From the NCBI GenBank assembly GCA_018242465.1, contig JAFEBY010000057.1, forward strand, positions 1-41,766: DNA of 41,766 nt, read 5' to 3'. Of this stretch, positions 1-14,154 are shown one piece after another; the first letter of the stretch is position 1; each line of letters begins with the position of its first letter. The translations under genes were made by a program, and so were the position numbers. Origin of the DNA: Pseudomonadota bacterium (GTDB lineage Bacteria > Pseudomonadota > Gammaproteobacteria > Xanthomonadales > Xanthomonadaceae). The notes beneath the pieces are model-generated. The model was not told the DNA's origin, made no database searches, and was given only the letters and a program-made list of their open reading frames with translations.

Positions 1-3000
1 GAGTTGTGCGATTGCCTCGCTGGCGGTGGGTGCGCAGCAGCAGTTCACGGTGAACGTGACGCCGCAGGCGGCCGCGGGTGCGAGCGTGACGAATACGGCG
101 CACGTGCAGGGCGGTGGTGATCCGGCCTGCAGCGTGAACTGCGACAGCACGCCGGTGACGACGACGATCAGCGCGCCAGCACTGAAGCTGACCAAGAGTG
201 CTTCTGTAGCGAATGTGACGGTAGGTGTGCCCTACAGCTATACGCTGAAGGTGGACAACGTCGGCACGACGGCCACCACGGCACCGGTGACAGTGACCGA
301 CAACATCCCGACGGGTCTGACGATCAACGGCACGCCTGCGGGCTGCACGGTCGCGGGTCAGGCGGTCACTTGCATGGTGCCCACGGGTCTTGCGACGGGT
401 GGCAGCAGCAGTTTCGTGATCTCGGTGATCCCGACGGCAGCGGCTGTGCCAAGCGTGACCAACACGGCGGTGGCGAATGGCGGTGGCGATCCGGCCTGCA
501 ATGGCGCGGGCAACTGCACCTCGACGGTGACGTTGGGGGTGAGTGCGCCCAAGCTCAAGCTGACCAAGACTGCCTCGGTAGCGACTGCGAGTGTCGGCGT
601 GCCGTTCAACTACACGCTGAAGGTGGAGAACATCGGCAATACCGCTACCACGGCGCAGGTGACTGTGGACGACAACATCGTGCCGAGCTTGATTCTGGGT
701 GCGGTACCTGCTGGTTGCTCGACAACAGGTCAGACGGTGATCTGCACGATTCCGACGGGTCTTGCTGCGGGCGCCAGCGTCAGCTTCGTGATTCCGGTGA
801 CCCCGACGGCGGCGTCCGTACCGAGTGTGACCAACTCGGCGGGGGCGAGCGGTGGTGGTGATCCGACTTGCAATGGCACGGGCAACTGCACCTCGGCTAT
901 CACGATTCCGGTCAATGGACCTGCAATCAAGCTGACCAAGACTGCTTCGGTGACGACTGCGACCGTTGGAGTGCCGTTCAACTACACACTGAAGGTGGAC
1001 AACACTGGCAATTCCGCAACCACGGCTCCTGTGGTGGTGACCGATGCAATCCCGACGGGCTTGATGCTCGGCGCGATGCCTGCGGGCTGCTCGGCGGCAA
1101 GCCAGACGGTTACCTGTACGGTGCCGACGGGCCTTGTCACGGGTGGCAGCACCAGCTTCGTCATCCCGGTGACGGCGACGGCGACGGCGATGCCGACCGT
1201 GACCAACACGGCGGTGGCGAATGGAGGCGGTGATCCGGCCTGTAATGGCGCAGGCAACTGCACCTCCACGGTCACCTTGACGGTGGAAGCAGCCAAACCG
1301 GCAACGATTTCCGGCGTGGCCTTCTACGACATGGACTTGAACGGTGTGCAGGGCGCCGGCGATCGACCGCTGGTGGGCTACACGGTTGAGTTGCTCCAGA
1401 CTGTGGGCGGAACGACCAGTGTGATTGCGACCACGAAGACCGGCAGTGACGGCAGCTATGCCATCACCAACCTGACTCCGGGCGTTGGTTACCAGGTCCG
1501 CTTCCGCGATCCGATCGGCAACCTGATTCTGGGTACGCCGTTCAACCAGGCGGTCAAGACGCAGTTGGGTCATCCGTCCACGGGTACCAATGCGCTGATC
1601 ACGCCGGTTTCGCCGACGACGTCGATGCCGGCTGCCCAGGTGATCACCGGAATCACGCTGTACTCCGGTGACAACACCATCCAGCAGAACTTGCCGCTGG
1701 ATCCGAGTGGTGTGGTTTACGACTCGGTGACACGCCAGCCGCTGGCGGGTGCCACGGTGAAGATCGTTGGCCCAGCAGGCTTCGATCCGGCCAAGCATTT
1801 GGTGAGCGGAAGCGATACCTATGTGACCGACAGCCTCGGCATCTACCAGTTCGTGTTCGTCAACGCGCCACCTGCGGGTACCTATCGCCTGGAAATCACA
1901 CCACCGGCGAACTACGTGCCGCCGCAGGCACAAGCGGGTGGCGTGGCGCCGAGCCAAGGAACTCTGGTCGTTCCGGTGGGCCGCACGTTGGTGCAGCCGC
2001 AGCCGACGGCCCCGGCAACGGGAGTGAACGGCTTGCCGGGCACACGTTACTACTTGGCCTACGACATCGATTTCGCGACGCGTCCGGGCGAGGCGTTGAA
2101 CAACCACATCCCGCTGGATCCGATCGGTGCGCTCAGTGGTCGCATGCGACTGACCAAGACGGCCCAGCCGACCAATGTTCACGTGGGTGACCTGGTGCGC
2201 TACACGATCACCATCGAAAACACGGGAACATCGGCGATCACGGATGTCTCGGTCATCGATACGCCTCCGGCGGGCTTCAGCTACGTCAACAATTCGGTGG
2301 CGGTGGTCGATCGCGACAACAGGGGTGATCTGGTGGCGCTGCGAGCGATCACGGTATCGGGCATCGATATCGATGTCGGCAAGAGCGCAGTGGTGACCTA
2401 TATGCTGCGCGTGGGTGCAGGGGTCCGTCCGGGCACCTACACCAATCAGGCGATCATGCGCGACCGTGGCCACGATGCATCCAACATGGCGACGGCAGAT
2501 GTCCAGGTGGTCGGTGATCCGATGACCGATGACACGCTGATCCTCGGCACCGTGTTCGACGATCGTGATGGCGACGGCTGGCAGGATTCCGCCGATGCCT
2601 CGGGTCTCAAGGTGCAGGGCGGGTTCTCGCCGGCGGCCTATATCGCCAACTCGACCACGGTCGACCATGGCGATGGTCCCAAGCCGGAAGCCGACCACAG
2701 CTCGCCGATGCTGCATGGCATTTCGCTGGGCGAACTCAAGGGTCGCCAGTCGGATGCCGATCCGGTGGCCAAGCACCAGATCGTGATTCGCCAGCACCTG
2801 CGTGAACTCGCCTTCAACGACGACTTTGTGTTGAGCTCGAAGGAAGGGGTCAGCGTGCGCATGGATGCCGCAGGCAAGACGCGTGTCGAGACCAGCGGCG
2901 ATGCTGCCAAGGGCTTGAACGCGGTCGACCTGCGCGTCGAGCGCAAGGTTGCGCAAGTTGCCGATGGCTACGAAGTCGACTATGTGATCAGCAATGCCGG

Positions 3001-3886
3001 TGTTGACGAACGTGGCATTCCGGGCGTGCGCATCGCATCGGTGGAAGGCCTGCTGATCGAAACCGACCAGTTCGGTCGCTACCACGTCGCTGCGGTACCG
3101 GGCGGATCATGGGAGCGCGGGCGCAACTACATCCTCAAGGTCGATCCGTCGACGTTGCCGCCGGGCACCACCTTCACCACCGACAATCCGTTGGTGCGCC
3201 GGGTGACCCCGGGCCTGCCGGTGCGCTTCGACTTCGGCGTGAAATTGCCGCAGGGCGTGATCGAAGGCGGCAAATCAGAGGTTGAGATGGAGCTGGGCGA
3301 AGTGGTCTTCGCCCCGGGTGAGTCCGAGGTGCGCGAGCAGTACCTGCCGACCATCGCGAAGATGGCCGACAAGGCGCGCGAACATGGTGGTGGTGAAGTG
3401 GTGATCCGTGCGAACGGGGAAACCGCTGCACTGGCCTACCGGCGTGCCGAAGCGGTGAAAGCTGCGTTGCTGGGCAAGCTCGACAAGGCTACGGCGGAAG
3501 GGCTGACCGTGAGCGTGCGCACCGATGTCAACAATCCGGCCACGCTGGTTGCAGGCATTGGCGGCAACGGGACGCTGCTGGGGACCGTGCTGTTCGATAC
3601 CGACAAGTCGGCGATTCGTCCGGAGTTCGAAGCATTGCTCGATACCGTTGCGGCAGAGCTGGAGAAACGTGGTGGTGGAGTGATCGCCCTGGTCGGGCAT
3701 ACCGACATCCGCGCATCGCATGCCTACAACACGCAACTCGGCCTGCGCCGCGCTAAGGCGGTATACGAAGCACTGACGAAGCGGATGAAGCCGGAGATGC
3801 GAGCGAAGGTTCGCATCGACATCAACGACGATTCGACGGCCCCCGTCGATGTATCTGTGCCACGCAAGTCGGGGGACGTGCGATGA
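1..3886 (+). CDS. DUF11-repeat / SdrD-B-like / OmpA-like surface protein, 5' partial
   Basis: The frame is open from base 2, so the real start lies upstream of the window; about 1294 residues are visible. In order, counting from the GTG at 26: three near-identical 124-residue DUF11-type repeats (about 54-425, each starting near KLTK and ending near VTNTAVANGGGDPAC); an SdrD-B-like domain (GVAFYDMDLNGVQGAGD); a carboxypeptidase-regulatory-like domain (about 570-640); a fourth DUF11 domain (LTKTAQPTNVHVGD); another SdrD-like stretch (GTVFDDRDGDGWQD); then two OmpA-like modules, the second well conserved (VLFDTDKSAIRPEF ... GHTD near 1224, then LRRAKAVYEAL). DUF11 and SdrD-B modules are known from long surface proteins, and OmpA-like domains usually bind peptidoglycan. 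I infer an extended envelope protein tethered at its C-terminus. The stop overlaps the next gene by 4 bases (ATGA), so the two are probably co-translated. Whether it has a signal peptide cannot be seen. The precise function is unknown. Confidence 0.85.
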   Translation, partial: SCAIASLAVGAQQQFTVNVTPQAAAGASVTNTAHVQGGGDPACSVNCDSTPVTTTISAPALKLTKSASVANVTVGVPYSYTLKVDNVGTTATTAPVTVTDNIPTGLTINGTPAGCTVAGQAVTCMVPTGLATGGSSSFVISVIPTAAAVPSVTNTAVANGGGDPACNGAGNCTSTVTLGVSAPKLKLTKTASVATASVGVPFNYTLKVENIGNTATTAQVTVDDNIVPSLILGAVPAGCSTTGQTVICTIPTGLAAGASVSFVIPVTPTAASVPSVTNSAGASGGGDPTCNGTGNCTSAITIPVNGPAIKLTKTASVTTATVGVPFNYTLKVDNTGNSATTAPVVVTDAIPTGLMLGAMPAGCSAASQTVTCTVPTGLVTGGSTSFVIPVTATATAMPTVTNTAVANGGGDPACNGAGNCTSTVTLTVEAAKPATISGVAFYDMDLNGVQGAGDRPLVGYTVELLQTVGGTTSVIATTKTGSDGSYAITNLTPGVGYQVRFRDPIGNLILGTPFNQAVKTQLGHPSTGTNALITPVSPTTSMPAAQVITGITLYSGDNTIQQNLPLDPSGVVYDSVTRQPLAGATVKIVGPAGFDPAKHLVSGSDTYVTDSLGIYQFVFVNAPPAGTYRLEITPPANYVPPQAQAGGVAPSQGTLVVPVGRTLVQPQPTAPATGVNGLPGTRYYLAYDIDFATRPGEALNNHIPLDPIGALSGRMRLTKTAQPTNVHVGDLVRYTITIENTGTSAITDVSVIDTPPAGFSYVNNSVAVVDRDNRGDLVALRAITVSGIDIDVGKSAVVTYMLRVGAGVRPGTYTNQAIMRDRGHDASNMATADVQVVGDPMTDDTLILGTVFDDRDGDGWQDSADASGLKVQGGFSPAAYIANSTTVDHGDGPKPEADHSSPMLHGISLGELKGRQSDADPVAKHQIVIRQHLRELAFNDDFVLSSKEGVSVRMDAAGKTRVETSGDAAKGLNAVDLRVERKVAQVADGYEVDYVISNAGVDERGIPGVRIASVEGLLIETDQFGRYHVAAVPGGSWERGRNYILKVDPSTLPPGTTFTTDNPLVRRVTPGLPVRFDFGVKLPQGVIEGGKSEVEMELGEVVFAPGESEVREQYLPTIAKMADKAREHGGGEVVIRANGETAALAYRRAEAVKAALLGKLDKATAEGLTVSVRTDVNNPATLVAGIGGNGTLLGTVLFDTDKSAIRPEFEALLDTVAAELEKRGGGVIALVGHTDIRASHAYNTQLGLRRAKAVYEALTKRMKPEMRAKVRIDINDDSTAPVDVSVPRKSGDVR
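185..1300 (+). repeat. Tandem 372-bp coding repeat, three copies
   Basis: The 12-mer aagctgaccaag recurs at 185, 557 and 929, a period of exactly 372 bp (124 codons). The copies agree over most of their length, and part of an earlier diverged copy occupies bases 1-184. Each copy encodes one DUF11 domain, so copy-number change would add or remove whole domains in frame. The similarity also creates matching antisense open frames spaced 372 bp apart, which are artefacts. Confidence 0.9.
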
Positions 3887-6800
3887 AACTGAAGATGAAA
3901 CTGCTGGATTACACGCTGATCTCCCTGCTTGCAGGCATGTCGCCGCTCGTATTCGCGCAGGATGCCGGTGGCGATGGGGTGACGTTCAAGTTGCGCACGC
4001 GCAGCTATGACCAACCAGTGACGCAGGGGACCGACAAGAAGTCGTCATCGCAGGCACTACAACCCGATCGCCGTGTCACCATCGCAACGGATGCGCCGGA
4101 AATGCCTGGCAAGGCTACGGCAGCCGGCAAGTGGTCGGTACAGCTCGCAAATGGCGGCGTGATCTGGGCGACGGAAGATCCCAGCCTCAGCCAGCCCCAG
4201 ATGGCGGTGTCCGCAAGCAATCTGGTGGCCTATGACGGCAGCAAAATCACCAAGCCGGTGAAGTTCTACGGCAGCACCAACTATTCGGCGTTCATGAAGC
4301 ACGCCGAAATCGTGGTGTTCCGCGCCAGCGACAGTGATCTGGTGACGCCGCTGGCGACGGTCCCGCTGAAGATCGGTGCGATCATGGAAGGCGAGTGGGA
4401 CGGCCACATCGATGCCGCCACCGGCGCGCCGTTGCGCGTTGGCGACGAATTGACTTATGTCGTGCGTGCGTGGTCCGACGACAAGACCTACGACGAAACC
4501 TATCCTGCGCGCATGCAACTGGTGCGTCCGGAGGAATTGGAGATCCAGCAACAGCGCACCACCGCACAGGCGGTGCAATCCGGGCAGCGGCCGCTGACCG
4601 ATGCGGCCGCCAGCGAGATGCTGCAGATCCAGCAGGTGTTCGGCCAGAACACCCTGCGCCTGCAGAACATTCCGGTGTATGGATCGCGCGTGCGTATCCA
4701 GGGCCGCAACGTCCCCGATCAGCAAATGGTGACGATCAACGGGCAGGCGATGCCGGTCGATCTCGAACGCAAGTTCGTCTCCGAATATCTGTTGCCGATC
4801 GGCCACTATTCCTTCGATGTGCAGGTCGGCAAAGAAGGCGATGCCGGTACTGCGAACCGCAAGCTCGACATCGACGTGACCGGCAAGTATTTCTTCGGTG
4901 TCGGCATTGCCGACTTCACCCTGTCCGGCAACAGTGTGTCGGGTTCGGTGGAACCGCTGGCCAACCAGCCGCAATTCACCAAGGACAGCTTGCTGGAAGG
5001 TCGCCTGGCGTTCTATCTCAAGGGCAAGGTAAAGGGGAAATACCTGTGGACGGCGCAGGCCGACACCCAGGAGAAGCAGGTTTCACAATTGTTCACCGGC
5101 TTCTGGAAGGCCGATGCAACGGACATCTTCCGTCAGCTTGACCCTGATGCGTACTACCCGGTCTACGGCGACGATTCGACGACCTATCGCGATGTCGACA
5201 CCATGGGCCGTCTCTACCTGCGCGTCGATTGGGACAAGAACCAGGCGCTGTGGGGCAACTACAACACGGGCCTGACTGGCACCCAATACGCACAATACAA
5301 CCGCAGTCTCTACGGTGCGGCAGTGGCATGGCGTTCGCAGGCGACGACAAAATACGCAGAACCGGGAACGCTCGTGCGTGCCTTCGGTTCGCAGGCGCAG
5401 AGTGCGCCCGGCCACAGCGAATTCCTTGGTACGGGCGGCAGCCTGTACTACCTCAAGCACACCGGCATCCTGCCTGGTTCGCAACAGGTGGTGCTGGAAA
5501 TCCGCGACCCCACCACGGGATCGGTGATCAATCGCGTCACCCTCGTCAATGGCGTCGATTATGAGATCGATGCCTACCAGGGCCGGATCCTGCTGACGCG
5601 GCCGTTGTCGCAGGTCGCCAGCGAGAACGTGCACACGCTGACGCGCGATACCCCACTGACTGGCTACACCCAAGTGCTGCTGGTCGACTACGAATATGTG
5701 CCGACTGGCTTCAAGGCCGACGATATCGCCGCCGGTCTGCGCGTCAAGCACTGGTTCGGCGACCACGTCGGAGTCGGTGCGACCTACGTCGACGAGAATC
5801 GCGCCGGCGATGATTACCGCATGGCGGGCGCCGATATCACCCTGCAGGCGGGACGCGGCACCTACCTCAAGGTCGAGCAGACGCATACGCAGGCGACCAG
5901 CGCGCCGATTTTCTATTCAAGCAACGGCGGTCTGAGCTTCACCCAGACCAACGCGGCGCAGCCGACGAATGGCAGCGGCACCGCACGCGCGGTCGAAGCG
6001 CGCATCAACACCAAGGAACTGGGCTGGACCCAGCGCGAATGGCAGGCCGGGGCTTGGTGGCGCGACGTCGATGCCGGCTATTCGGTCTCGCGTTATGACA
6101 TTGGCCAGCCGGTGCATGAAGTCGGCGCCGAAGTGCTGGGCGATGTCAGCGACGTGGTGCGGATGTATGCCCGCGTCAGTCGCGCCGAACGCGGCAGCGA
6201 CTTGCTCGAGCAGGAACAGGTCACCGCCGACTGGCGCTTGAATGAGCGGACGCTGCTGAGCGGAGAACTGCGCCGGGTCGACCAGCGCAACGCCGGCGTT
6301 GAAAGCGTCGGCACCCTGCTGGCTGCCAAATACTCGAAGCACATCGGCACTTCGCTGGATGTCTATGGCATCGGCCAGGTCACGCTCGATGACGATGGCG
6401 GCAAGTACGCGAAGAACAATGCGTTCACCGCAGGCGCCAAATACATTTTCGGCAACCTGTCGAACATCGGCGGCGAAGCGACGGTGGGCGATCGCGGCAA
6501 CGCGGTGAGCGTGAACGGCGAATACCGCGCCAGCCAGAACCACACACTGTACGCCAATTACACGTACTCGACCGACACCACCCAGTACGACCCGTTGTTC
6601 AACCCCAGCGTCACCCCGGGCTGGACCGTGGGGCAGCGCTGGCAGCTCAACAGCAAGGTCAACGTCTTCAATGAAAGCCAGTTCCTGAAGGCGCCGAACC
6701 AGTCCGGCCTCGCCCATACCTTCGGCATGAACTTCTATCCGTCGCAGGGCTGGAACACGGGCTTCACCTTGCAACAGGGGTCGCTGGAACAGGCCGACGG

Positions 6801-7536
6801 CAAGACCGATCGCCAGGCGGTCAGCATCACCGGCGGTTACACCAGCCCGATCGCGCAGTGGCAGAGCAAGCTGGAATGGCGCAAGGACAGTGGTGCCGAA
6901 CGCCGCCGTCAATGGGTGACGACCAACTGGTTCAATTACAAGTGGAACGAGAGCCTGCGTTTCGCCGGACGCCTCAATATGTCCGATACCCTCGACCTGA
7001 CGCAGTCGATCGCTGGCGCGCGTTTCGTCGAAGGCAATGTCGGCTTCGCCTGGCGCCCGTGGAACTCCACCAAGTACGCGTTGCTGGGCAAGTACACCTA
7101 TCTGTACGACGTCTCGGCATTGCCGCAGGTGGGCGACGACACCGCCTATTACGACCAGCAGAGCCGCGTGTTCTCGATCGAAGGTGTCTACCACCCGCTG
7201 CCGCGCTGGGAATTCTCCGGCAAGCTGGCGCGTCGTGATGGCGAAGTGCGCTTCGGCCGCTTCACCGGGGCATGGGAAAGCTCGGCGGCGACATTCGGTG
7301 CGGTGCAGGTGCGCTACGGCCTGATCCACACCGACTGGAACGCCTTGGCCGAATACCGCTGGCTGGGTGTCGACAAGGGTGGCGTGCGCAAGGGCGTGCT
7401 GCTCGGCATCGACCGCAACATCACCAAGGGACTGCGTGTCGGTGTCGGCTACAACTTCACCGATTTCAGCGACAACCTCACCGATTTCAGCTACCGCCAC
7501 CACGGCTGGTTCCTGAATGTCGTGGGCAGCTATTGA
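3883..7536 (+). CDS. Large predicted outer-membrane beta-barrel protein, partner of the DUF11/OmpA protein
   Basis: A 1217-residue protein starting at ATG 3883 inside the stop of the upstream gene. The N-terminus (MKLKMKLLDYTLISLLAGMS, with a likely cut after VFA at residue 25) looks like a Sec signal peptide. Residues about 60-330 look like periplasmic beta-sandwich material, including YGSTNYSAFMKHAEIVVF. From about 340 onward the sequence has the alternating aromatic/polar pattern of transmembrane beta strands (RLYLRVDWDKNQALWGNYN, HTLYANYTYSTD, FAWRPWNSTKYALLGKYTYL). The protein ends FLNVVGSY, with a C-terminal aromatic residue as expected of a BAM-recognised beta-signal. No TonB box or plug-domain motif is obvious, so I do not call it a TonB-dependent receptor. 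The four-base overlap suggests it acts with the upstream protein, perhaps as its export or anchoring barrel; this is inference. No characterised family was recognised. Confidence 0.8.
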   Translation: MKLKMKLLDYTLISLLAGMSPLVFAQDAGGDGVTFKLRTRSYDQPVTQGTDKKSSSQALQPDRRVTIATDAPEMPGKATAAGKWSVQLANGGVIWATEDPSLSQPQMAVSASNLVAYDGSKITKPVKFYGSTNYSAFMKHAEIVVFRASDSDLVTPLATVPLKIGAIMEGEWDGHIDAATGAPLRVGDELTYVVRAWSDDKTYDETYPARMQLVRPEELEIQQQRTTAQAVQSGQRPLTDAAASEMLQIQQVFGQNTLRLQNIPVYGSRVRIQGRNVPDQQMVTINGQAMPVDLERKFVSEYLLPIGHYSFDVQVGKEGDAGTANRKLDIDVTGKYFFGVGIADFTLSGNSVSGSVEPLANQPQFTKDSLLEGRLAFYLKGKVKGKYLWTAQADTQEKQVSQLFTGFWKADATDIFRQLDPDAYYPVYGDDSTTYRDVDTMGRLYLRVDWDKNQALWGNYNTGLTGTQYAQYNRSLYGAAVAWRSQATTKYAEPGTLVRAFGSQAQSAPGHSEFLGTGGSLYYLKHTGILPGSQQVVLEIRDPTTGSVINRVTLVNGVDYEIDAYQGRILLTRPLSQVASENVHTLTRDTPLTGYTQVLLVDYEYVPTGFKADDIAAGLRVKHWFGDHVGVGATYVDENRAGDDYRMAGADITLQAGRGTYLKVEQTHTQATSAPIFYSSNGGLSFTQTNAAQPTNGSGTARAVEARINTKELGWTQREWQAGAWWRDVDAGYSVSRYDIGQPVHEVGAEVLGDVSDVVRMYARVSRAERGSDLLEQEQVTADWRLNERTLLSGELRRVDQRNAGVESVGTLLAAKYSKHIGTSLDVYGIGQVTLDDDGGKYAKNNAFTAGAKYIFGNLSNIGGEATVGDRGNAVSVNGEYRASQNHTLYANYTYSTDTTQYDPLFNPSVTPGWTVGQRWQLNSKVNVFNESQFLKAPNQSGLAHTFGMNFYPSQGWNTGFTLQQGSLEQADGKTDRQAVSITGGYTSPIAQWQSKLEWRKDSGAERRRQWVTTNWFNYKWNESLRFAGRLNMSDTLDLTQSIAGARFVEGNVGFAWRPWNSTKYALLGKYTYLYDVSALPQVGDDTAYYDQQSRVFSIEGVYHPLPRWEFSGKLARRDGEVRFGRFTGAWESSAATFGAVQVRYGLIHTDWNALAEYRWLGVDKGGVRKGVLLGIDRNITKGLRVGVGYNFTDFSDNLTDFSYRHHGWFLNVVGSY

Positions 7537-7585
7537 TAAAGGAAATGGGCACCGTGCGATGCCCATCCGCGATGGAGAAAAGACG

Positions 7586-9331
7586 GTGTTCGTGAAGAAG
7601 CTTGATGTGGTGCGTGCTTGGTCTCTCCGCATTGGCCTGGTGCTTGCGGGGGTATTGCTGGCGGGGCAGGCGATGGCGCAAGGCGTGCGCTGGGAGGATT
7701 ACCGCGGCGACCAGAATGTCGCGCCGGATGCCAACTACAATGGTCCCGCGGGCGCACCCAAGTTCACCAACTATCCCAATTCCGTGGCGATTGCCAATTT
7801 GCGGGCGGTCTCGACGAATATTGGCAACGCCGTGCGCACCGGAACCAGCAGCACCATCGACTTCTCCGGCGGTGCCGCCGATGCCTTATGCGACAATCGC
7901 AACAATACCACCAGCGTGCCGTGCCGCCTCCAGGCGCAAGGCAAGGTCGCCTATGCGCTGGTGCGGTTTCCGCAAGCAGGCACATACAGCATCCTCGCTG
8001 CGCACGATGACAACGTGGTGATCGAGTTGTCTCCTGACTTCACCAACACCAATTACCGCACTGCGAGCTACAGCATTCTGGCGGGTACGGTGTCCGACTG
8101 GAGCAACAGCGAAACCGATTTCCAGACATTCGGATCGTTTACGGCCGCCAGCGCCAATAGTTGCGCATTGCTGCGCATGTATTGGAACAATCAGGCTGGA
8201 CAGAACTTCAACCATTTGCAATGGACAACGCCAGGCGGCGTGACCCAGATCATCCCGGCTACGATGCTTCTAGACCCGGGTGCCGTGAGTAGCTCTACGG
8301 GCTGCAATGGCTCGATCAGTGGCAACCTGGCAGGAATCACCCTGAACAAGGTGATTGGTTCGCCGCGCATCAATGCCGCCGACCAGTTCACCATCGAGAT
8401 CGGTACCACTGCGGGCGGCGGTACTGTCGCCACCGCGACCACCAGCGGTTCCGCCACCGGCCAGCAGGCCAGTACTTCGTTCGCGACGACGACCGGGACC
8501 ACGTACCACGTGCGCGAAATCATGGCGGCGGGCAGCAGTTCCGTCATCACCGCATACACGGCGGCGATCAGCTGTACCAAGAATGGGACTGCATTCACGC
8601 CGACAGCCGAAGGGACTGCCTCGCAGCGGCGCTGGAGTCTCGGGGCAGCCGGGGCTACCGATCAGGTCGTCTGCACCATCACCAATACCAGCAACGCCAA
8701 ACCTACCGTGACCGTCAACAAGGTCAGTATTGGCGGCACCGGCACGTTTGCCTTCTCCGGAAGCAACGGCATCGTCAGCCGTAACATCACCACCACTGGT
8801 GACAGCGTGCCTGCCGCAGGTCCGGCGGACACCCTGACCGCCGCCAGCACGTCGACCACCGTCACCGAAGGCGCACCGCCTGCGGGCTGGACTCTGCAGA
8901 GCATCAGTTGCAGCGGGCTTGGTTCCGGTGGAACGGCGACGCCGAATATTGCCGCGCGCACGGTCACGTTGGATGCCGCCGCCACTGCAAACGGCAGCGC
9001 CATCATTTGCACCTTCACCAACCGCAAGCTCACGGCCGACCTGTCGATCATCAAGACCAACGGGGCCACTTCCGTTGTCTCCGGAAGCACGACGACGTAC
9101 ACGATCCGGGTGACCAACAACAGCGGCGCGGATACGGCAACTGGTGCGATGCTCAGGGATCCGGCTGTTGTCGGATTGACCAAGATCGGTGCCCCCGTCT
9201 GCTCTGCCACGCCGGGGCAATGCACGGCAGGCACCACGCCGACGAACGCGCAGCTGGAAAGCGGCTATGCACTCCCGGCGCTGGCTGCAGGGCAGTTCTA
9301 CGAAATCAAGGTCACCTGCAACGTCAACTGA
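7586..9331 (+). CDS. Secreted PA14-like / prealbumin-like / DUF11 protein
   Basis: About 581 residues from GTG 7586, chosen because GGAGA at 7574 is well spaced and the protein then begins directly with a signal peptide (MFVKKLDVVRAWSLRIGLVL ... cut after AMA). An upstream in-frame ATG at 7559 is the alternative; it lies in the loop of a small hairpin (atgggc 7545 / gcccat 7561). After the signal there is a region of about 200 residues with PA14-like features (VRWEDYRGD, YWNNQAGQNFNHLQWTTPGG), then two prealbumin-like beta domains (ITLNKVIGSP, VTVNKVSIGG, each ending near VCTITNTSN or ICTFTNRK), then a DUF11 domain (LSIIKTNGATSVVSG). That last domain stops at YEIKVTCNVN, before the VTNTA strand present in the DUF11 repeats of the first gene, so the C-terminus may be truncated. 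No sorting or anchor motif is seen. It is read in the same direction 49 bases after the barrel gene. Function unknown; an adhesin-like role is inference. Confidence 0.75.
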   Translation: MFVKKLDVVRAWSLRIGLVLAGVLLAGQAMAQGVRWEDYRGDQNVAPDANYNGPAGAPKFTNYPNSVAIANLRAVSTNIGNAVRTGTSSTIDFSGGAADALCDNRNNTTSVPCRLQAQGKVAYALVRFPQAGTYSILAAHDDNVVIELSPDFTNTNYRTASYSILAGTVSDWSNSETDFQTFGSFTAASANSCALLRMYWNNQAGQNFNHLQWTTPGGVTQIIPATMLLDPGAVSSSTGCNGSISGNLAGITLNKVIGSPRINAADQFTIEIGTTAGGGTVATATTSGSATGQQASTSFATTTGTTYHVREIMAAGSSSVITAYTAAISCTKNGTAFTPTAEGTASQRRWSLGAAGATDQVVCTITNTSNAKPTVTVNKVSIGGTGTFAFSGSNGIVSRNITTTGDSVPAAGPADTLTAASTSTTVTEGAPPAGWTLQSISCSGLGSGGTATPNIAARTVTLDAAATANGSAIICTFTNRKLTADLSIIKTNGATSVVSGSTTTYTIRVTNNSGADTATGAMLRDPAVVGLTKIGAPVCSATPGQCTAGTTPTNAQLESGYALPALAAGQFYEIKVTCNVN

Positions 9332-9340
9332 TCGCCATGA

Positions 9341-10696
9341 TCACCGGTGCAACAGCAAGAGCGTCGCCAGCCCGAGGAAACTCAGGAAGCCCATCACGTC
9401 GGTGATGGTGGTGAGGATGACGCCGCCGGCCAGCGCCGGATCAAAGCCCATCCGCTTCACCATCACCGGTACGAACACGCCGCCCAGCGCGGCGGCGGTG
9501 AAGTTGATGGTCAGCGCCATCGCGATCACCAGCGCCAGCATCGGGTCGCGGAACCAGGCGAGCACGATGAGGGCAAGCAGCAGGCCGATGCCGATGCCAT
9601 TGATGATGGCGATGCGTACTTCCTTCCATACCAACGTCATCACGTTGCTGGCGCCGATCTGGCCCAGCGCAAGGCCACGCACCATCAGCGCGAGCACCTG
9701 TGTTCCGGAATTGCCGCCCATGCCGGCGACGATCGGCATCAGCACCGCCAGCGAAACCAGGTGGGCAATGGTGCCCTGGAACTGACCGACCACCGATGAT
9801 GCCAGGAAGGCGGTGGCGAGATTGATGGTCAGCCACAGCATGCGGCGTCGGAAGGCGCGGCGCACCGGCGAGAACAGATCCTCTTCCTCGTCGAGGCCGG
9901 CGGCCGACAGCACCTGGTGTTCGGCCTGGTTGCGGATGATGTCGACGACGTCGTCGATGGTGATGCGACCGAGCAAGATGTTGTTGTCATCCACCACTGG
10001 CGCCGAGATCCAGTCGTGGTTGGAGAACTGGCGCGCGACTTCATCTGAAGTTTCGTGGACGTCGATGGCCGGCTGCTCGCCGTCCATCAATTCGTTCACG
10101 GACGTGTTGGAATCGTGGGTGAGCAACGCCTGCAGCGCGATTCGCCCGAGGTACTGGTGGCGCTTGCTGACGACGTAGAGATGATCGGTATGTTCCGGAA
10201 GTTCGCCGCGCAGGCGCAGGTAGCGCAGCACGACGTCGACGGTGGTGTCGGTGCGCACCGTGACCACGTCGGGATTCATCAGGCGGCCGGCGGTGTCCTC
10301 CTCGTAGGACAGTACCTGTTCGAGGCGCTCGCGGTTCTCGCGATCCATCGACTTCAGGACTTCATCGACGACCGTGTCTGGCAAATCGTCGGCGAGGTCT
10401 GCAAGGTCGTCGATGTCGAGGTCCTCGACCGCAGCGACCAGTTCGTCGGGATCCATGTCGGCGATCAGGCCTTCGCGGACTTCCTCGCCGACATGCACCA
10501 GCACCTCGCCGTCGTCCTCGGGATCGACCAGCCCCCACACCACGCTGCGCTTGGCCGGCGGCAGCGATTCCAGCAGGTTGCCGATTTCCGCCGGCGACAG
10601 GGTGTTGACCAGCCGGCGCACCGGGCCGAGGCGGCCGCTGTCGAGCGCGTCGCTGAGCAGGCGCAGCTGTCGAGCGGTCTCAGAGCCTATCTGCAT
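9341..10696 (-). CDS. mgtE: Magnesium transporter MgtE
   Basis: A 451-residue MgtE-family Mg2+ channel. In order: a helical MgtE-N domain (about 1-125, rich in acidic residues, ending near SYEEDTAGRLMNPDVVTV), a CBS pair (about 130-250, including LLGRITIDDVVDII), then the hydrophobic channel domain (about 275-451) with GGNSGTQ and TAAALGG in membrane segments. The family gates Mg2+ entry by Mg2+ binding to the N and CBS domains. It is the last gene of the minus-strand block, 167 bases after ptsI, and converges with the plus-strand surface locus 9 bases away. The start is unusual: ATG 10696 is the only plausible start, because an in-frame TAG lies two codons upstream, and it sits within the arm of a perfect inverted repeat, so residues 1-5 (MQIGS) are encoded by that element. 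Confidence 0.95.
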   Translation of the reverse strand: MQIGSETARQLRLLSDALDSGRLGPVRRLVNTLSPAEIGNLLESLPPAKRSVVWGLVDPEDDGEVLVHVGEEVREGLIADMDPDELVAAVEDLDIDDLADLADDLPDTVVDEVLKSMDRENRERLEQVLSYEEDTAGRLMNPDVVTVRTDTTVDVVLRYLRLRGELPEHTDHLYVVSKRHQYLGRIALQALLTHDSNTSVNELMDGEQPAIDVHETSDEVARQFSNHDWISAPVVDDNNILLGRITIDDVVDIIRNQAEHQVLSAAGLDEEEDLFSPVRRAFRRRMLWLTINLATAFLASSVVGQFQGTIAHLVSLAVLMPIVAGMGGNSGTQVLALMVRGLALGQIGASNVMTLVWKEVRIAIINGIGIGLLLALIVLAWFRDPMLALVIAMALTINFTAAALGGVFVPVMVKRMGFDPALAGGVILTTITDVMGFLSFLGLATLLLLHR

Positions 10697-10756
10697 ACGC
10701 TACCTGGCTCGCGCTGGGGCTGTATGCCCATGATGCATGGTATGCAGATAGGCTCT
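10682..10756. repeat. 75-bp element with perfect 17-bp terminal inverted repeats at the mgtE start
   Basis: The left arm 10682-10698 (agagcctatctgcatac) is exactly complementary to the right arm 10740-10756 (gtatgcagataggctct), with a 41-base interior. The left arm contains the mgtE start codon on the minus strand. The size and perfect ends resemble a MITE or solo remnant of a DDE insertion sequence. No target-site duplication is visible (flanks gtctc and tgtgg). As RNA it could fold and hide the mgtE start. Confidence 0.75.
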
Positions 10757-10863
10757 TGTGGCGGAGGATTTCGGCCAAGGCGCGGATTCCGTTGGGCGGC
10801 CACGCCAAGGCGCGGCGGATCAGGCGTTCATGGCACGATTATCGCCCGCGGAGGTTGCCGCCG

Positions 10864-12588
10864 TCACCCCGCGCCAGCGCTGTCCCGCAGCCAGTGTTCG
10901 ATGGCGGCGCGGTCCTGAAGGCGCAGCAGGTGTGGCAGCATCGCACGGCGCGCTTCGTAATCGCAGGCGCGCACGGCCTTGCGTACTTCCAGCAGGCTCG
11001 ACGGATGCATGCTGAATTGCTCGAGGCCGAGCGTGAGCAGCAGCGGGGCGTAGAGTGGATCGGCGGCGAATTCGCCGCACATCGCTACCGCACGGCCGCG
11101 CAGGCGCGCAGTGCGAATGATGTCGGCGAGCACGCGCAACACCGCCGGATGAAGTGGCGTGTAGAGATCGTCCAGCGCGTCGTTGCCGCGGTCGGCGGCG
11201 AGCAGGTATTGCACAAGATCATTGGTGCCGATCGAGACGAAGTCGACCAGGCCGATCCAGCGCGACAGCGACAGTGCCGCCGAGGGCACTTCGATCATCG
11301 CGCCCAGCGGAACCAGCTCGCGGATCGCCGTATGCGTCTTCGACAGTTCGCCATGCAGGCGTTTCAGGCGCAGGCGCACCGATTTGATCTCTTCGCGCCC
11401 CGACACCATCGGCAGCAGGATGCGCACCGGGCCGTAGGCGGAGGCGCGCAGGATCGCGCGCAATTGATCGTCGAACAGGTCGGGGCGACGCAGCGACAGG
11501 CGGATGCCACGCACGCCGAGCGCGGGATTGGGTTCATCGGTCAGTGCGAGTCCGGTGCGATCGGCCTTGTCGGCGCCGATGTCGAGGGTGCGGATGGTGA
11601 CCGGGCGCCCGGCCATGCCGAGCACGGCATCGCGATAGGCGAGGAATTGTTCTTCTTCGCTCGGGACTTCATCGCGCTGCAGGAACAGGAATTCGGTGCG
11701 ATAAAGACCGACGCCATTGGCGCCGAGCATGTGGCCGGTGGCGATGTCTTCGCGCGTTTCCGCATTGATCCACAGTTCGATGTCCTGGCCATCGCGGGTG
11801 CGGGTGCGTTCGCGGCGCAGCTTCTGCAGGGCCTTGCGTTCGCGTTGCTCTTCGCGTGCCTTGACGCGGTGCTGGCGCAGGTCGGCGGCGGAAGGCTCGA
11901 CAATGATCGTGCCGGTATCGCCATCGACGATCAGGACGTCACCATCGTTGATGTCGGCCAGCGCTTCGCTGGAGCCGCTGACCATCGGCAGGTGCAGGCT
12001 GCGCGCGAGGATGGCGCTGTGCGAATAGGCACTGCCGGCGATGGTGACGATGCCGAGCACGCCCTGTGAGGGCAGGCGCGCGAGATCAGCGGGCGCCACG
12101 CTGGGCGTGACCAGGATGTCGCCGGCGGCACCGGCCACTTCGGCATCGCGCTGGTGCAGCGCGCTGTGGATGCGCAGGATGACCTGATCGATGTCCTCCA
12201 TGCGCCCACGGAGGTAGGCATCGTCCATTGCCGCGAAGGCCGCTGCGACGCGATCGCGTTGCAGGCGCAGGGCGTAGTCGGCGCTGCAATGTTCATCCTG
12301 CACCAGTGATTTCAGACCACGGAGCAGTTCGGGGTCGTCCAACACCAGGGTGTGGACATCGATCAGGTCGCGGACTTCCTTGGTCAGGGTGTCCTGCAGC
12401 TTCTCGCGCAGCGCAGCCATCTCGCCGCGAACCACACCGATCGCCGAGCGCAGGCGCGCCAGTTCGCCCGGAACATCGCTGGCACGGATGCGTTCCTCGC
12501 GGATCTGCAGCGGGTGCGTGTGCACCACGCGGGCGCGACCAAGTGCACTGCCGCGTGCGGCCGGTTGTGCCTGGTACACGCGACGCAT
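10864..12588 (-). CDS. ptsI: PTS enzyme I (phosphoenolpyruvate-protein phosphotransferase)
   Basis: A 574-residue enzyme I, about the length of E. coli PtsI and without the N-terminal GAF domain of PtsP. It takes phosphate from PEP and passes it to HPr. The HPr-binding/phosphohistidine domain contains SHSAILARS with the expected active His at 190; the residues just before it are AY where many enzymes I have RT or PT. The PEP-binding barrel carries GVGLYRTEFLF (about 293-303), RTLDIGADK, and the catalytic Cys in VAMCGEFAADP (Cys504). It lies 3 bases after ptsH in the EIIA-HPr-EI order. With no EIIB or EIIC gene here, the phosphorelay is probably regulatory, feeding the mannose-type EIIA and perhaps PtsN. 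Confidence 0.95.
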   Translation of the reverse strand: MRRVYQAQPAARGSALGRARVVHTHPLQIREERIRASDVPGELARLRSAIGVVRGEMAALREKLQDTLTKEVRDLIDVHTLVLDDPELLRGLKSLVQDEHCSADYALRLQRDRVAAAFAAMDDAYLRGRMEDIDQVILRIHSALHQRDAEVAGAAGDILVTPSVAPADLARLPSQGVLGIVTIAGSAYSHSAILARSLHLPMVSGSSEALADINDGDVLIVDGDTGTIIVEPSAADLRQHRVKAREEQRERKALQKLRRERTRTRDGQDIELWINAETREDIATGHMLGANGVGLYRTEFLFLQRDEVPSEEEQFLAYRDAVLGMAGRPVTIRTLDIGADKADRTGLALTDEPNPALGVRGIRLSLRRPDLFDDQLRAILRASAYGPVRILLPMVSGREEIKSVRLRLKRLHGELSKTHTAIRELVPLGAMIEVPSAALSLSRWIGLVDFVSIGTNDLVQYLLAADRGNDALDDLYTPLHPAVLRVLADIIRTARLRGRAVAMCGEFAADPLYAPLLLTLGLEQFSMHPSSLLEVRKAVRACDYEARRAMLPHLLRLQDRAAIEHWLRDSAGAG

Positions 12589-12591
12589 GGG

Positions 12592-12861
12592 TTACTCGCC
12601 CTCGTCGAAACGGCGCGCGAACAGGTCGACGACCGCGGCGACCGCGGCATCGGCATCTTCGCCTTCGGCGCGGACCACTACCGTGGTGCCGACACCGGCG
12701 GCCAGCATCATCACGCCCATGATGCTTTTGGCGTCGACTTCGCGGCCACGCGCGGCAATCATGATCTTCGACTTGAACGATGCAGTGGTCTGCACCAGTT
12801 TTGCGCTGGCCCGGGCATGCAGGCCGAGCTTGTTGATGACGGGGATCTCGCGCTCGATCAT
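12592..12861 (-). CDS. ptsH: HPr-family phosphocarrier protein
   Basis: An 89-residue HPr. His15 is in LGLHARASAKLV, the site phosphorylated by enzyme I, and Ser46 is in AKSIMGVMML, the site phosphorylated by HPr kinase, both at canonical positions. Keeping Ser46 makes sense because hprK lies three genes upstream in the same run. It is separated by 3 bases from the EIIA gene before it and from ptsI after it, so the three form a tight unit. It links the PEP-driven relay to HprK-dependent regulation. Confidence 0.96.
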   Translation of the reverse strand: MIEREIPVINKLGLHARASAKLVQTTASFKSKIMIAARGREVDAKSIMGVMMLAAGVGTTVVVRAEGEDADAAVAAVVDLFARRFDEGE

Positions 12862-12864
12862 CGC

Positions 12865-13257
12865 TCAGCCTTCGTCCAGGACAACACCGTTGCGGCCGCC
12901 CACCGATGCGATCGACTGCAAACCGGCGAGGTCGTGGTCGGCATAGTTCATCACCCGCAACACCATCGGCAGGCTCACGCCCGCCACGCGCTTCGCCGGC
13001 GTGCCCAGACGCACCAGTTGCGCGGCGAGATTACTCGGGCTGGCGCCATAGACATCGGTCAGCACCAGCACGCCTTCGCCGTCGTCGACCTTGCGCAGTT
13101 CGGCGCTCGCCAGCGGCAACGCGGTTTGCGGGTCGAGGTCGAACGGCAATTCGTAGACCCCGGTTTTGAGCGGCAACTGTCGCAACAGGCGTTCGGCCAC
13201 GGTCAGCATTGGCCGGCCGATGCCTTCATGGGTGACGAGGAGGAGTCCGACGCTCAT
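12865..13257 (-). CDS. PTS EIIA component, mannose/fructose (Man) family
   Basis: 130 residues, the size of a single EIIA-Man domain. It begins MSVGLLLVTHEGIG, with His10 as the expected phosphorylation site, and contains VLVLTDVYGASPSNLA, typical of the family. In E. coli this domain is fused to EIIB in ManX; here it stands alone and no EIIB, EIIC or EIID gene is in view. Similar solitary proteins occur beside ptsH-ptsI in other proteobacteria with HPr kinase. It is therefore more likely a phospho-regulated sensor than part of a sugar transporter. It precedes ptsH by 3 bases and follows rapZ by 30. Confidence 0.9.
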   Translation of the reverse strand: MSVGLLLVTHEGIGRPMLTVAERLLRQLPLKTGVYELPFDLDPQTALPLASAELRKVDDGEGVLVLTDVYGASPSNLAAQLVRLGTPAKRVAGVSLPMVLRVMNYADHDLAGLQSIASVGGRNGVVLDEG

Positions 13258-13287
13258 GCCATCAAATTAGCATGAAGACCGCGACGA

Positions 13288-14154
13288 TCACTCGAGTTCG
13301 CGATGGAAGGTGGCGACCTCATCCCAGCCCCGGGCGCGGGCGTGCTCGGCGATCACTTCGGCGAGGTAGACCGAGCGATGGCGGCCGCCGGTGCAACCGA
13401 AGGCGACGGTGACATAGCTGCGGGTTTCACCCTGCAGTTTGGGCAGCCAGGTGTCGAGGAAGTCTGTCACCTGTTTCACATAGGTGGAGACTTCCGGTTC
13501 TCCTTCGAAGTATTCGCGCACTGCCTGGTCGCGCCCGGACAGCGGGCGCAATGCCGGCTCCCAATGCGGGTTGGGCAGCATGCGCGCATCGAGCACGAAG
13601 TCGGCGTCGGCGGGGATGCCGCGCTTGTAGGCGAACGATTCGAACAGCAAGGACAGTTGGTGGTCGGGGGCGACGCCGAGTTCCTTGGTCAGCATGCGCC
13701 GCAGTTGGTGCACGTTGAGTGCGCTGGTATCGATCAAGACGTCGGACAGTGCACGCAAGGGTTTCAACGCCTGGCGCTCAAGGCGCAACGAATCGGCCAG
13801 CGCCAGGCCGAGATGGCTCAGCGGGTGCTTGCTGCGCGATTCCGAATAGCGCTTCATCAGCACTTCGTCGGAGCTCTCGAGGAAGATCAGTTGTGGATCG
13901 AGCCCGATTGCACCGACTTCGCCCAGCCATTCCGGCATCTGCGCGAGATCGCTGCGACTGCGGATGTCGATGCTCGCGGCCATGCGCTCGACCGGGAACC
14001 CGTCGTCGGCGATCATCCGGCGTGCCCATTCCGGCAGCATTTCCGCGGGAAGGTTGTCGACGCAATGGAAGCCGAGGTTTTCCAGTGTGCGCAGCGCCAC
14101 CGATTTGCCGGAACCCGACATGCCCGTGACCAGGATGAGGCGGGGCGTGGTCAT
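13288..14154 (-). CDS. rapZ: RNase adapter / nucleotide-binding protein RapZ
   Basis: A 288-residue RapZ/YvcJ protein. The Walker A motif GMSGSGKS is at residues 11-18, followed by [13 protein letters not shown], and the C-terminal domain has [17 protein letters not shown], the family's conserved ligand-binding motif. In E. coli RapZ senses glucosamine-6-phosphate and steers small RNAs controlling GlmS to RNase E; the role here should be comparable but is not tested. The start overlaps the hprK stop by 4 bases. The rpoN-hpf-ptsN-rapZ association is conserved in gammaproteobacteria, here with hprK inserted between ptsN and rapZ. Confidence 0.96.

Follow-up and report, generated by a model that had tools for sequence, protein, structure and literature searches.

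The window, that is the whole stretch of DNA analysed, comprises 41,766 nucleotides and is an entire contig (JAFEBY010000057.1, G000:C92) of a Lysobacter-like genome of 2.5 Mb, assembled in 139 contigs and 87% complete. At its start lie three genes, encoding a giant protein of DUF11 repeats and OmpA modules (gene 1, the stalk), an outer-membrane barrel (gene 2) and a secreted protein with a terminal DUF11 domain (gene 3, the proposed tip). Comparison with relatives makes it fairly likely that the locus specifies a modular surface fibre, composed of the stalk, a dedicated barrel and a tip whose unfinished domain is completed by the N-terminal strand of the stalk. An earlier note on this DNA had described a three-gene surface locus with a DUF11/OmpA protein, a coupled barrel of 1217 residues and a secreted third protein, and this description is confirmed. 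The third protein, which had been called PA14-like/DUF11, is secreted and carries SpaA and DUF11 domains, but its head has no Pfam match at E≤1, leaving the PA14-like label without support at that threshold. The features of the locus are as follows.

2..3886, plus strand: gene 1, giant DUF11/OmpA stalk protein, an open frame of 1294 residues with its 5' end missing at the contig edge
182..526, plus strand: DUF11 repeat with the Lys, Asp and Asn of the isopeptide triad (own DUF11 profile)
554..895, plus strand: DUF11 repeat with Lys, Asp and Asn (own DUF11 profile)
926..1270, plus strand: DUF11 repeat with Lys, Asp and Asn (own DUF11 profile)
2144..2506, plus strand: last DUF11 repeat of gene 1, with Lys, Asp and Asn (Pfam and own DUF11 profile)
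2531..2983, plus strand: MID (own name), conserved middle region of gene 1 (own profile)
2987..3259, plus strand: VEG module (own name), SdrD_B/prealbumin-like, containing ETDQFGRYH and used as a marker of the system (own profile)
3266..3853, plus strand: two OmpA-like modules, the second with GHTD...R, which we take to be an OmpA pattern (Pfam and own profile)
3883..7536, plus strand: gene 2, outer-membrane barrel of 1217 residues, translationally coupled through ATGA (open reading frame, neighbourhood and AlphaFold2 (AF2) models)
3955..4995, plus strand: BN and BJ (own names), N-terminal Ig-like domains of the barrel protein, presumably periplasmic (own profiles and model)
4996..7533, plus strand: BC (own name), predicted barrel region (own profile and models)
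5152..5271, plus strand: highly conserved stretch YYPVYGDDSTTYRDVDTMGRLYLRVDWDKNQALWGNYNTG in the barrel protein (comparison of relatives)
within 7517..9331, plus strand: gene 3, secreted SpaA/DUF11 protein, proposed tip subunit, start codon uncertain
7679..8326, plus strand: gene 3 head, variable among relatives (N-terminal match in 5 of 41)
8336..9028, plus strand: SpaA_3 and SpaA_4 domains of gene 3 (Pfam)
9038..9328, plus strand: terminal DUF11 domain of gene 3 without its last strand, the proposed acceptor (Pfam, own profile and MAFFT)

Gene 1 matches the Pfam families DUF11, SdrD_B, SpaA and, at its C-terminus, OmpA (E 1e-11); in our own reading of the sequence a degenerate OmpA-like module precedes the latter. 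Because the window is a whole contig, the 5' end of this gene is lost. The start of gene 2 overlaps the end of gene 1 by 4 bases (ATGA), and signal peptides were recognised by eye on the products of both gene 2 and gene 3.

The close relatives used for comparison are the best 80 of 101 barrel relatives on genome contigs, from Xanthomonadaceae, Comamonadaceae, Acinetobacter, Microbulbifer and a few other taxa. All 78 testable loci have a frame with DUF11, VEG and OmpA next to the barrel, upstream in 77 and downstream in one (L072); L053 and L105, at contig ends, fall outside this count. DUF11 is present in all of these frames but that of L056, which is cut by its contig, and when 78 stalk tails, the window's among them, were scanned with Pfam, 76 showed DUF11 and 76 OmpA, the tail of L049 being in the wrong frame. 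The junction between stalk and barrel (n=77) is an ATGA overlap in 53 cases, another overlap in five and a spacing of 0–20 bases in 19. Among 299 Pseudomonadota genomes, strong barrel matches (E<1e-100) occur in 14, and strong VEG matches (E<1e-25) in the same 14 and in G262, where VEG lies at the ends of two contigs and a barrel fragment on a third; both cut-offs were chosen by eye after the lists had been viewed. In more distant relatives DUF11 lies beside the barrel in 17 of 20 stretches, and DUF11 and barrel share one chain in L145, L151, L153 and L155. OmpA is a separate gene in L141, L142, L154 and L157–L160, and is fused to the N-terminus of the barrel in L143 and, weakly, in L146. An apparent barrel–DUF11 fusion in L087 was discarded as a frame change at the barrel end that runs into the next gene. 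Sequence comparison thus strongly supports a stalk/barrel pair that is real, conserved across genera and not the product of chance. The barrel has DUF11/OmpA neighbours in every testable locus of the close relatives, and the co-occurrence is conserved in other genomes. Of the matched display or export pair which the earlier note had suggested, the pair stands on the 78 loci, the reciprocity in 299 genomes and the fusions and splits, and display is likewise supported, whereas export through the barrel is presumed. A second, distant three-gene version exists in Xanthomonadaceae (L154, L157, L159, L228 and L232), with a DUF11/VEG protein, a barrel of about 1000–1180 residues and a separate OmpA protein.

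Searches of Pfam and NCBIfam at E≤1 gave no match for the barrel, be it to Usher, POTRA, autotransporter barrel, plug or TonB-barrel domains, and no PDB entry matches it by sequence. Comparison with three ushers by hhalign revealed no relation, and plug and TonB-barrel domains are absent at E≤0.1 from the distant relatives L141, L143, L145, L151 and L153. Two AF2 models of modest quality (pLDDT 66.6 and 69.2, pTM 0.54) contain 34 consecutive strands, with three more ahead of a poorly modelled insert, and predict a very large barrel. Fold searches returned generic outer-membrane barrels only, including Deinococcus SlpA and TonB receptors, and SprA of type IX secretion appeared among the matches at a low TM score. 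The candidate identities of TonB receptor, usher, two-partner secretion and type XI secretion system (T11SS) were dropped as lacking sequence support. In the accessible text of the T11SS paper PMC12282271, matches to DUF11 are mostly to DUF1194. The claim that the barrel resembles neither a TonB receptor nor two-partner secretion is upheld at these thresholds, profile searches placing it in no known secretion or TonB family. Plasmid records name its relatives TonB-dependent receptor, OmpA family protein or hypothetical protein. The barrel match is split over two adjacent frames in L241 (G013) and in G140. An IMG/VR contig (L191), more likely host sequence than virus, encodes a barrel at 63% identity.

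Of 79 loci where the sequence extends 2.5 kb or more past the barrel, 41 have a gene 3-type protein after it; removal of L072, where it is the relocated stalk, leaves 40 gene 3 proteins with a stop codon. Our DUF11 profile has 115 columns, with the Asn at column 94, and it finds a terminal domain in 38 of these 40 proteins without reaching the Asn column in any. The alignment ends within 4 residues of the end of the protein in 23 of the 40. In the window, the Pfam match to this domain likewise ends at profile position 83 of 114. Under a stricter cut-off the Asn column is reached by none of 33 terminal domains, whilst internal DUF11 domains of the same proteins reach it in 16 of 17 cases, all with Asn. 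When the terminal domains are aligned by MAFFT to PDB entry 9IFR, all 40 have Lys in the Lys column and Asp in the Asp column. The domain is a conserved DUF11 subtype. As a control, DUF11 proteins were taken from genomes lacking the barrel; in all eight usable cases of ten the last DUF11 domain is complete and another tail comes after it, one of the two excluded frames being interrupted and the other running off its contig. DUF11 proteins of other kinds elsewhere in the order (L261–L263, L266 and L267) end in a transmembrane tail, named by eye as VPTLD/VPTM-like, which is a different anchoring solution. In L033 four DUF11 tip-type frames stand in tandem after the barrel, as if they were alternative tips.

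The strand that these domains lack has a counterpart at the start of many stalks. Among the 77 upstream stalk frames, 35 are unread at the N-terminus (open at the start of the stretch or masked) and 42 are readable, six of which (L048, L049, L075, L081, L084 and L103) were dropped by eye for want of a clear signal peptide. Of the remaining 36, 23 begin directly after the signal peptide with an orphan strand containing Asn, for example QTVTNTATVTPPSG, and 13 begin otherwise (headed stalks). A profile of the last strand of internal DUF11 domains scores 3.2–14.9 bits on the 23 and at most 1.9 on the 13; since the best of 720 shuffles scored 8.4 bits, single donor starts are weak and it is the whole pattern that counts. 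A C-terminal domain lacking a strand and a complementary N-terminal strand on its partner are therefore both found at the level of sequence, as is expected for a donor-strand-joined fibre.

The two ends also occur together. Directly after the barrel, homology identifies a gene 3 in 19 of the 23 loci with an orphan strand and in none of the 13 others. With L071 confirmed by profile and L225, L227 and L233 added, the counts become 21 of 24 against 0 of 15 (Fisher p 3e-8, for rows that are not independent and include five near-identical Stenotrophomonas). Counted per genus (both tables were compiled by hand), with a genus scored positive if any of its orphan-strand loci has gene 3, they are 9 of 9 against 0 of 6, Stenotrophomonas, Luteimonas and Microbulbifer appearing on both sides. 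In genome-wide searches an acceptor match reaching the profile end was recovered from all five positive controls, from all four orphan-strand genomes seemingly without gene 3 and from 1 of 13 headed-stalk genomes. The sole exception, G354, obeys the rule at all three of its loci: the headed L055 and L227 are without gene 3, and the orphan-strand L225 has one. Across 60 relatives, the acceptor profile matches in 17 (E≤1e-18), 12 of which have a close barrel; the remaining five comprise G035, whose acceptors are terminal, and G037, G046, G048 and G057, where the domains are internal. G057 had been considered as a case of an acceptor without a barrel and was dropped, its domain being internal. 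Furthermore, the heads of 8 of the 11 headed stalks tested recur on gene 3 proteins at other loci, against 0 of 6 tested orphan starts; this comparison left out four headed stalks of 15 (L069, L070, L099 and L102) and 18 of the 24 orphan-strand stalks. A CshA_NR2 head is carried by the gene 3 protein of L097 (E 1.4e-44) and, in other relatives, in cis by the stalk. Some heads are therefore borne either by the stalk itself (in cis) or by gene 3 (in trans).

Other layouts extend the pattern. G145, which belongs to another class, has three genes before its barrel, encoding in order a headed protein with a truncated end, a protein with an orphan strand and a truncated end, and a VEG protein with an orphan strand; from sequence these read as tip, shaft with both ends, and base, followed by the barrel. 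There is also a distant single-chain branch, in which 16 of 23 loci are testable, the base running off the contig in seven. By eye, the upstream frame ends in a similar strand (...G...VTFQVTVD and alike), which looks truncated, in 16 of 16 and starts with a donor-like strand in all 14 visible cases. If this is right, the branch would have the layout of a pilin that joins to itself and stands on a base forming one chain with its barrel.

Comparison of relatives thus establishes, on the sequence side, the conserved pair, the module fusions, the complementary ends and their co-occurrence, and a mechanism can be proposed from them. Sec would export all parts. The DUF11 domains of the stalk would each be stapled by a Lys–Asn bond, with the N-terminus distal, whilst towards its C-terminus the VEG module would remain with the barrel and the OmpA modules hold on to peptidoglycan. 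The barrel would hold the stalk and probably pass it; its size, exclusivity and coupling are what suggest an export route. The tip would dock on the stalk by donor-strand complementation, its terminal DUF11 domain, with Lys and Asp, receiving the last strand from the free stalk N-terminus. With Lys and Asp retained in the acceptor and Asn supplied by the donor, an interchain Lys–Asn bond is expected by analogy with 9IFR, and tip and stalk may perhaps then be covalently locked.

A number of observations weigh against this reading. The pattern by which donor starts were sorted itself contains Asn, so that their Asn is not independent evidence, and the strand profile is weak, with only 10 of the 23 donor starts beating the best shuffle. 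On the acceptor side, the profile stops 21–40 residues short of the end in 15 of the 40 proteins, for which the common ending C-x-V served as a guide, and finds no match in two (L041 and L043). MAFFT can place the last strand of gene 3 on the Asn column, with Cys there in 40 of 40, whilst our own profile places that strand one strand earlier. The orphan-strand loci L050, L066 and L098 have no adjacent gene 3, although acceptor matches lie elsewhere in their genomes; that near L066 is a frame of just 117 residues, and in L098 a gene 3 lies about 3 kb beyond the barrel on the opposite strand. G035 has two terminal acceptors and no barrel match, one of them near a Pal-like gene as at the locus of relatives, and G021, G024 and G030 have a barrel and no acceptor match at E≤1e-18. 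Three distant barrel stretches are without DUF11 (L152, at a contig edge, L158 and L160). The stalk and barrel trees are correlated (0.70 over 74 loci), but the co-inheritance of neighbours explains this equally well, and the barrel models are too poor to reveal a pore. In the distant branch the DUF11 profile is undecided, with weak matches reaching columns 98, 105 and 110 (L248, L256 and L259).

The most substantial alternative, which is a real if doubtful possibility, is that the barrel is only an anchor or porin tethering the outer membrane to peptidoglycan and that the adhesin reaches the surface by another route. SlpA of Deinococcus has a tethering role, and it is among the outer-membrane barrels that fold searches match in general; the OmpA modules, in cis or fused to the barrel, fit such a tether too. 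The conserved pair, however, includes no other exporter, the barrel is dedicated to the stalk, and at least 34 strands exceed what a tether would need, although none of this is decisive. It is rather unlikely that the terminal DUF11 domain of gene 3 is instead a sorting domain read by the barrel, with no docking on the stalk. Ig-like C-terminal domains act as sorting domains in type IX secretion, and the gene 3 subtype is conserved, is restricted to C-termini by a crude pattern (29 terminal, 0 internal), is carried by different heads and is encoded beside a very large barrel. Against this, the barrel shows the same conservation at loci lacking gene 3, yet gene 3 tracks the orphan strand, even within one genome, and one G145 protein has an orphan strand at one end and a truncated domain at the other.

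A further reading is that gene 3 completes its own end, or that a second copy of gene 3 does so, and that the orphan strand is a mere spacer in the stalk. In its favour, the repeats are alike, so that other Asn strands might fit; the co-occurrence of the two ends and the sharing of heads in cis and in trans make it improbable. Least credible of all is a divergent TonB-dependent receptor with the DUF11 protein as its partner. Several plasmid records annotate relatives in this way and TonB receptors are among the many barrels returned by fold searches, but plug and TonB-barrel domains are missing at the thresholds given above, and TonB-dependent receptor barrels have 22 strands, fewer than are modelled here.

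The missing start of gene 1 may be found on another contig of the same genome, C85, whose end (L238) is collinear with the 4.5 kb directly upstream of the Lysobacter silvestris stalk gene (L034:9-4503 against L238:2307-6773, 83% identity). C85 next encodes a gene 3-type protein of 439 residues and then a DUF11 frame, with the mature start QTTVSNAATVAPPSGG, which runs off the contig. By synteny this frame is probably the 5' part of gene 1, the contigs being unjoined, and the window operon would then read gene 3', stalk, barrel, gene 3. Among the matches listed, the stalk N-termini closest to the C85 fragment are those of L050, L088 and L077, so that the link to gene 1 rests on synteny; DUF11 repeats by themselves do not prove it. 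The assembly has probably divided the DUF11 gene of the window between two of its contigs, and many contigs of relatives also begin inside these repeats. In L034, L094 and L100 there is a Pal-like gene several kb ahead of the stalk gene. Beyond the locus, genes named by eye as MgtE-like, PtsI-like and RapZ-like occupy 9341..14154 on the minus strand.

The filament half of the system has a published representative. The upstream stalk of L091, B9T28_05395 of Acinetobacter silvestris ANC 4999 (2129 residues), contains the 9IFR sequence at 708–828, so that this CLIPPER/OmpA adhesin is the stalk orthologue itself. The available text of PMC12617251 describes it as a putative fibrillar adhesin with an OmpA-like anchor and an isopeptide-stapled stalk, and 9IFR as a CLIPPER domain with a Lys715–Asn806 bond; the conserved Asp is Asp748 there and residue 749 by our own count. 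Pfam matches to DUF11 and OmpA, four window repeats with Lys, Asp and Asn, and orthology to the 9IFR parent support a place for the stalk among CLIPPER (DUF11) fibrillar adhesins. The available text of PMC10952558 reports proteobacterial proteins resembling CshA_NR2 that combine DUF11 repeats with OmpA anchors. A word search of the main text of both papers does not find "barrel", and the account of B9T28_05395 in the available text of PMC12617251 describes no barrel or tip subunit. Among the matches listed in the open-licence literature, there is no description of the barrel family or of a split DUF11 domain. The uncharacterised envelope system announced by the earlier note is therefore partly known: its filament half is already published, whilst no account of the barrel half or of the split-domain tip joint appears in the literature searched, so far as its accessible text extends.

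Several parallels can be drawn with known fibres. In chaperone-usher pili an incomplete Ig-like domain is completed by the N-terminal strand of the next protein, as is proposed here, and like the locus these pili have a large outer-membrane barrel; unlike them, the locus has a barrel without usher homology and a stalk that is one giant chain. A PapD-like chaperone (E≤1e-5) was not found in 7 of 14 chosen system-bearing genomes, including that of the window (87% complete) and G007. Against the absence of such a link, genes for both a chaperone and an usher are present on contig C9 of G004, within a few kb of a distant barrel (L160) which has no DUF11 neighbour in the stretch. Inverse autotransporters such as intimin and YeeJ likewise combine an Ig-like stalk, a barrel and peptidoglycan binding, but their barrel is far smaller, whereas in the window the chains are separate and in the fusions the barrel is C-terminal to the stalk. 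The engineered SpyTag/SpyCatcher pair is a split isopeptide domain that re-forms its bond between chains; a split of this kind at the locus, if likewise rejoined between chains, would be natural. The archaeal thread filament and type V pili are donor-strand-joined and not made by chaperone and usher, and for the thread the accessible text of PMC9715654 proposes an intermolecular isopeptide bond from the N-terminal amine to an Asn two subunits on; a Lys–Asn bond is expected at the locus, and the thread is described there without a barrel.

The locus thus appears to be a donor-strand-joined fibre in kind, with a live chance of forming a class of its own. Such a class, as yet undescribed in Gram-negative bacteria, would have Ig-like subunits joined through donor-strand exchange within split isopeptide (CLIPPER) domains, an enzyme-free covalent lock, a dedicated very large barrel unrelated by sequence to ushers which exports and anchors the base, and an OmpA tie to peptidoglycan. 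Its variants would be a tip on a giant stalk, the tip, shaft and base of G145, and pilin-like subunits on a base fused to the barrel. This wider proposal is put forward tentatively, as a serious possibility short of probable, and confidence in it was lowered slightly because the ends in the distant branch were read by eye and the profile there is undecided. If true, it would account for the way in which CLIPPER/OmpA adhesins of Gram-negative bacteria acquire their anchor and their tip. A barrel family whose present annotation is hypothetical protein or TonB receptor would gain a function, and natural candidates for the two halves of a split isopeptide domain would be available as dozens of pairs. 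The assembly of giant isopeptide-stapled adhesins on Gram-negative cells would thereby become directly testable.

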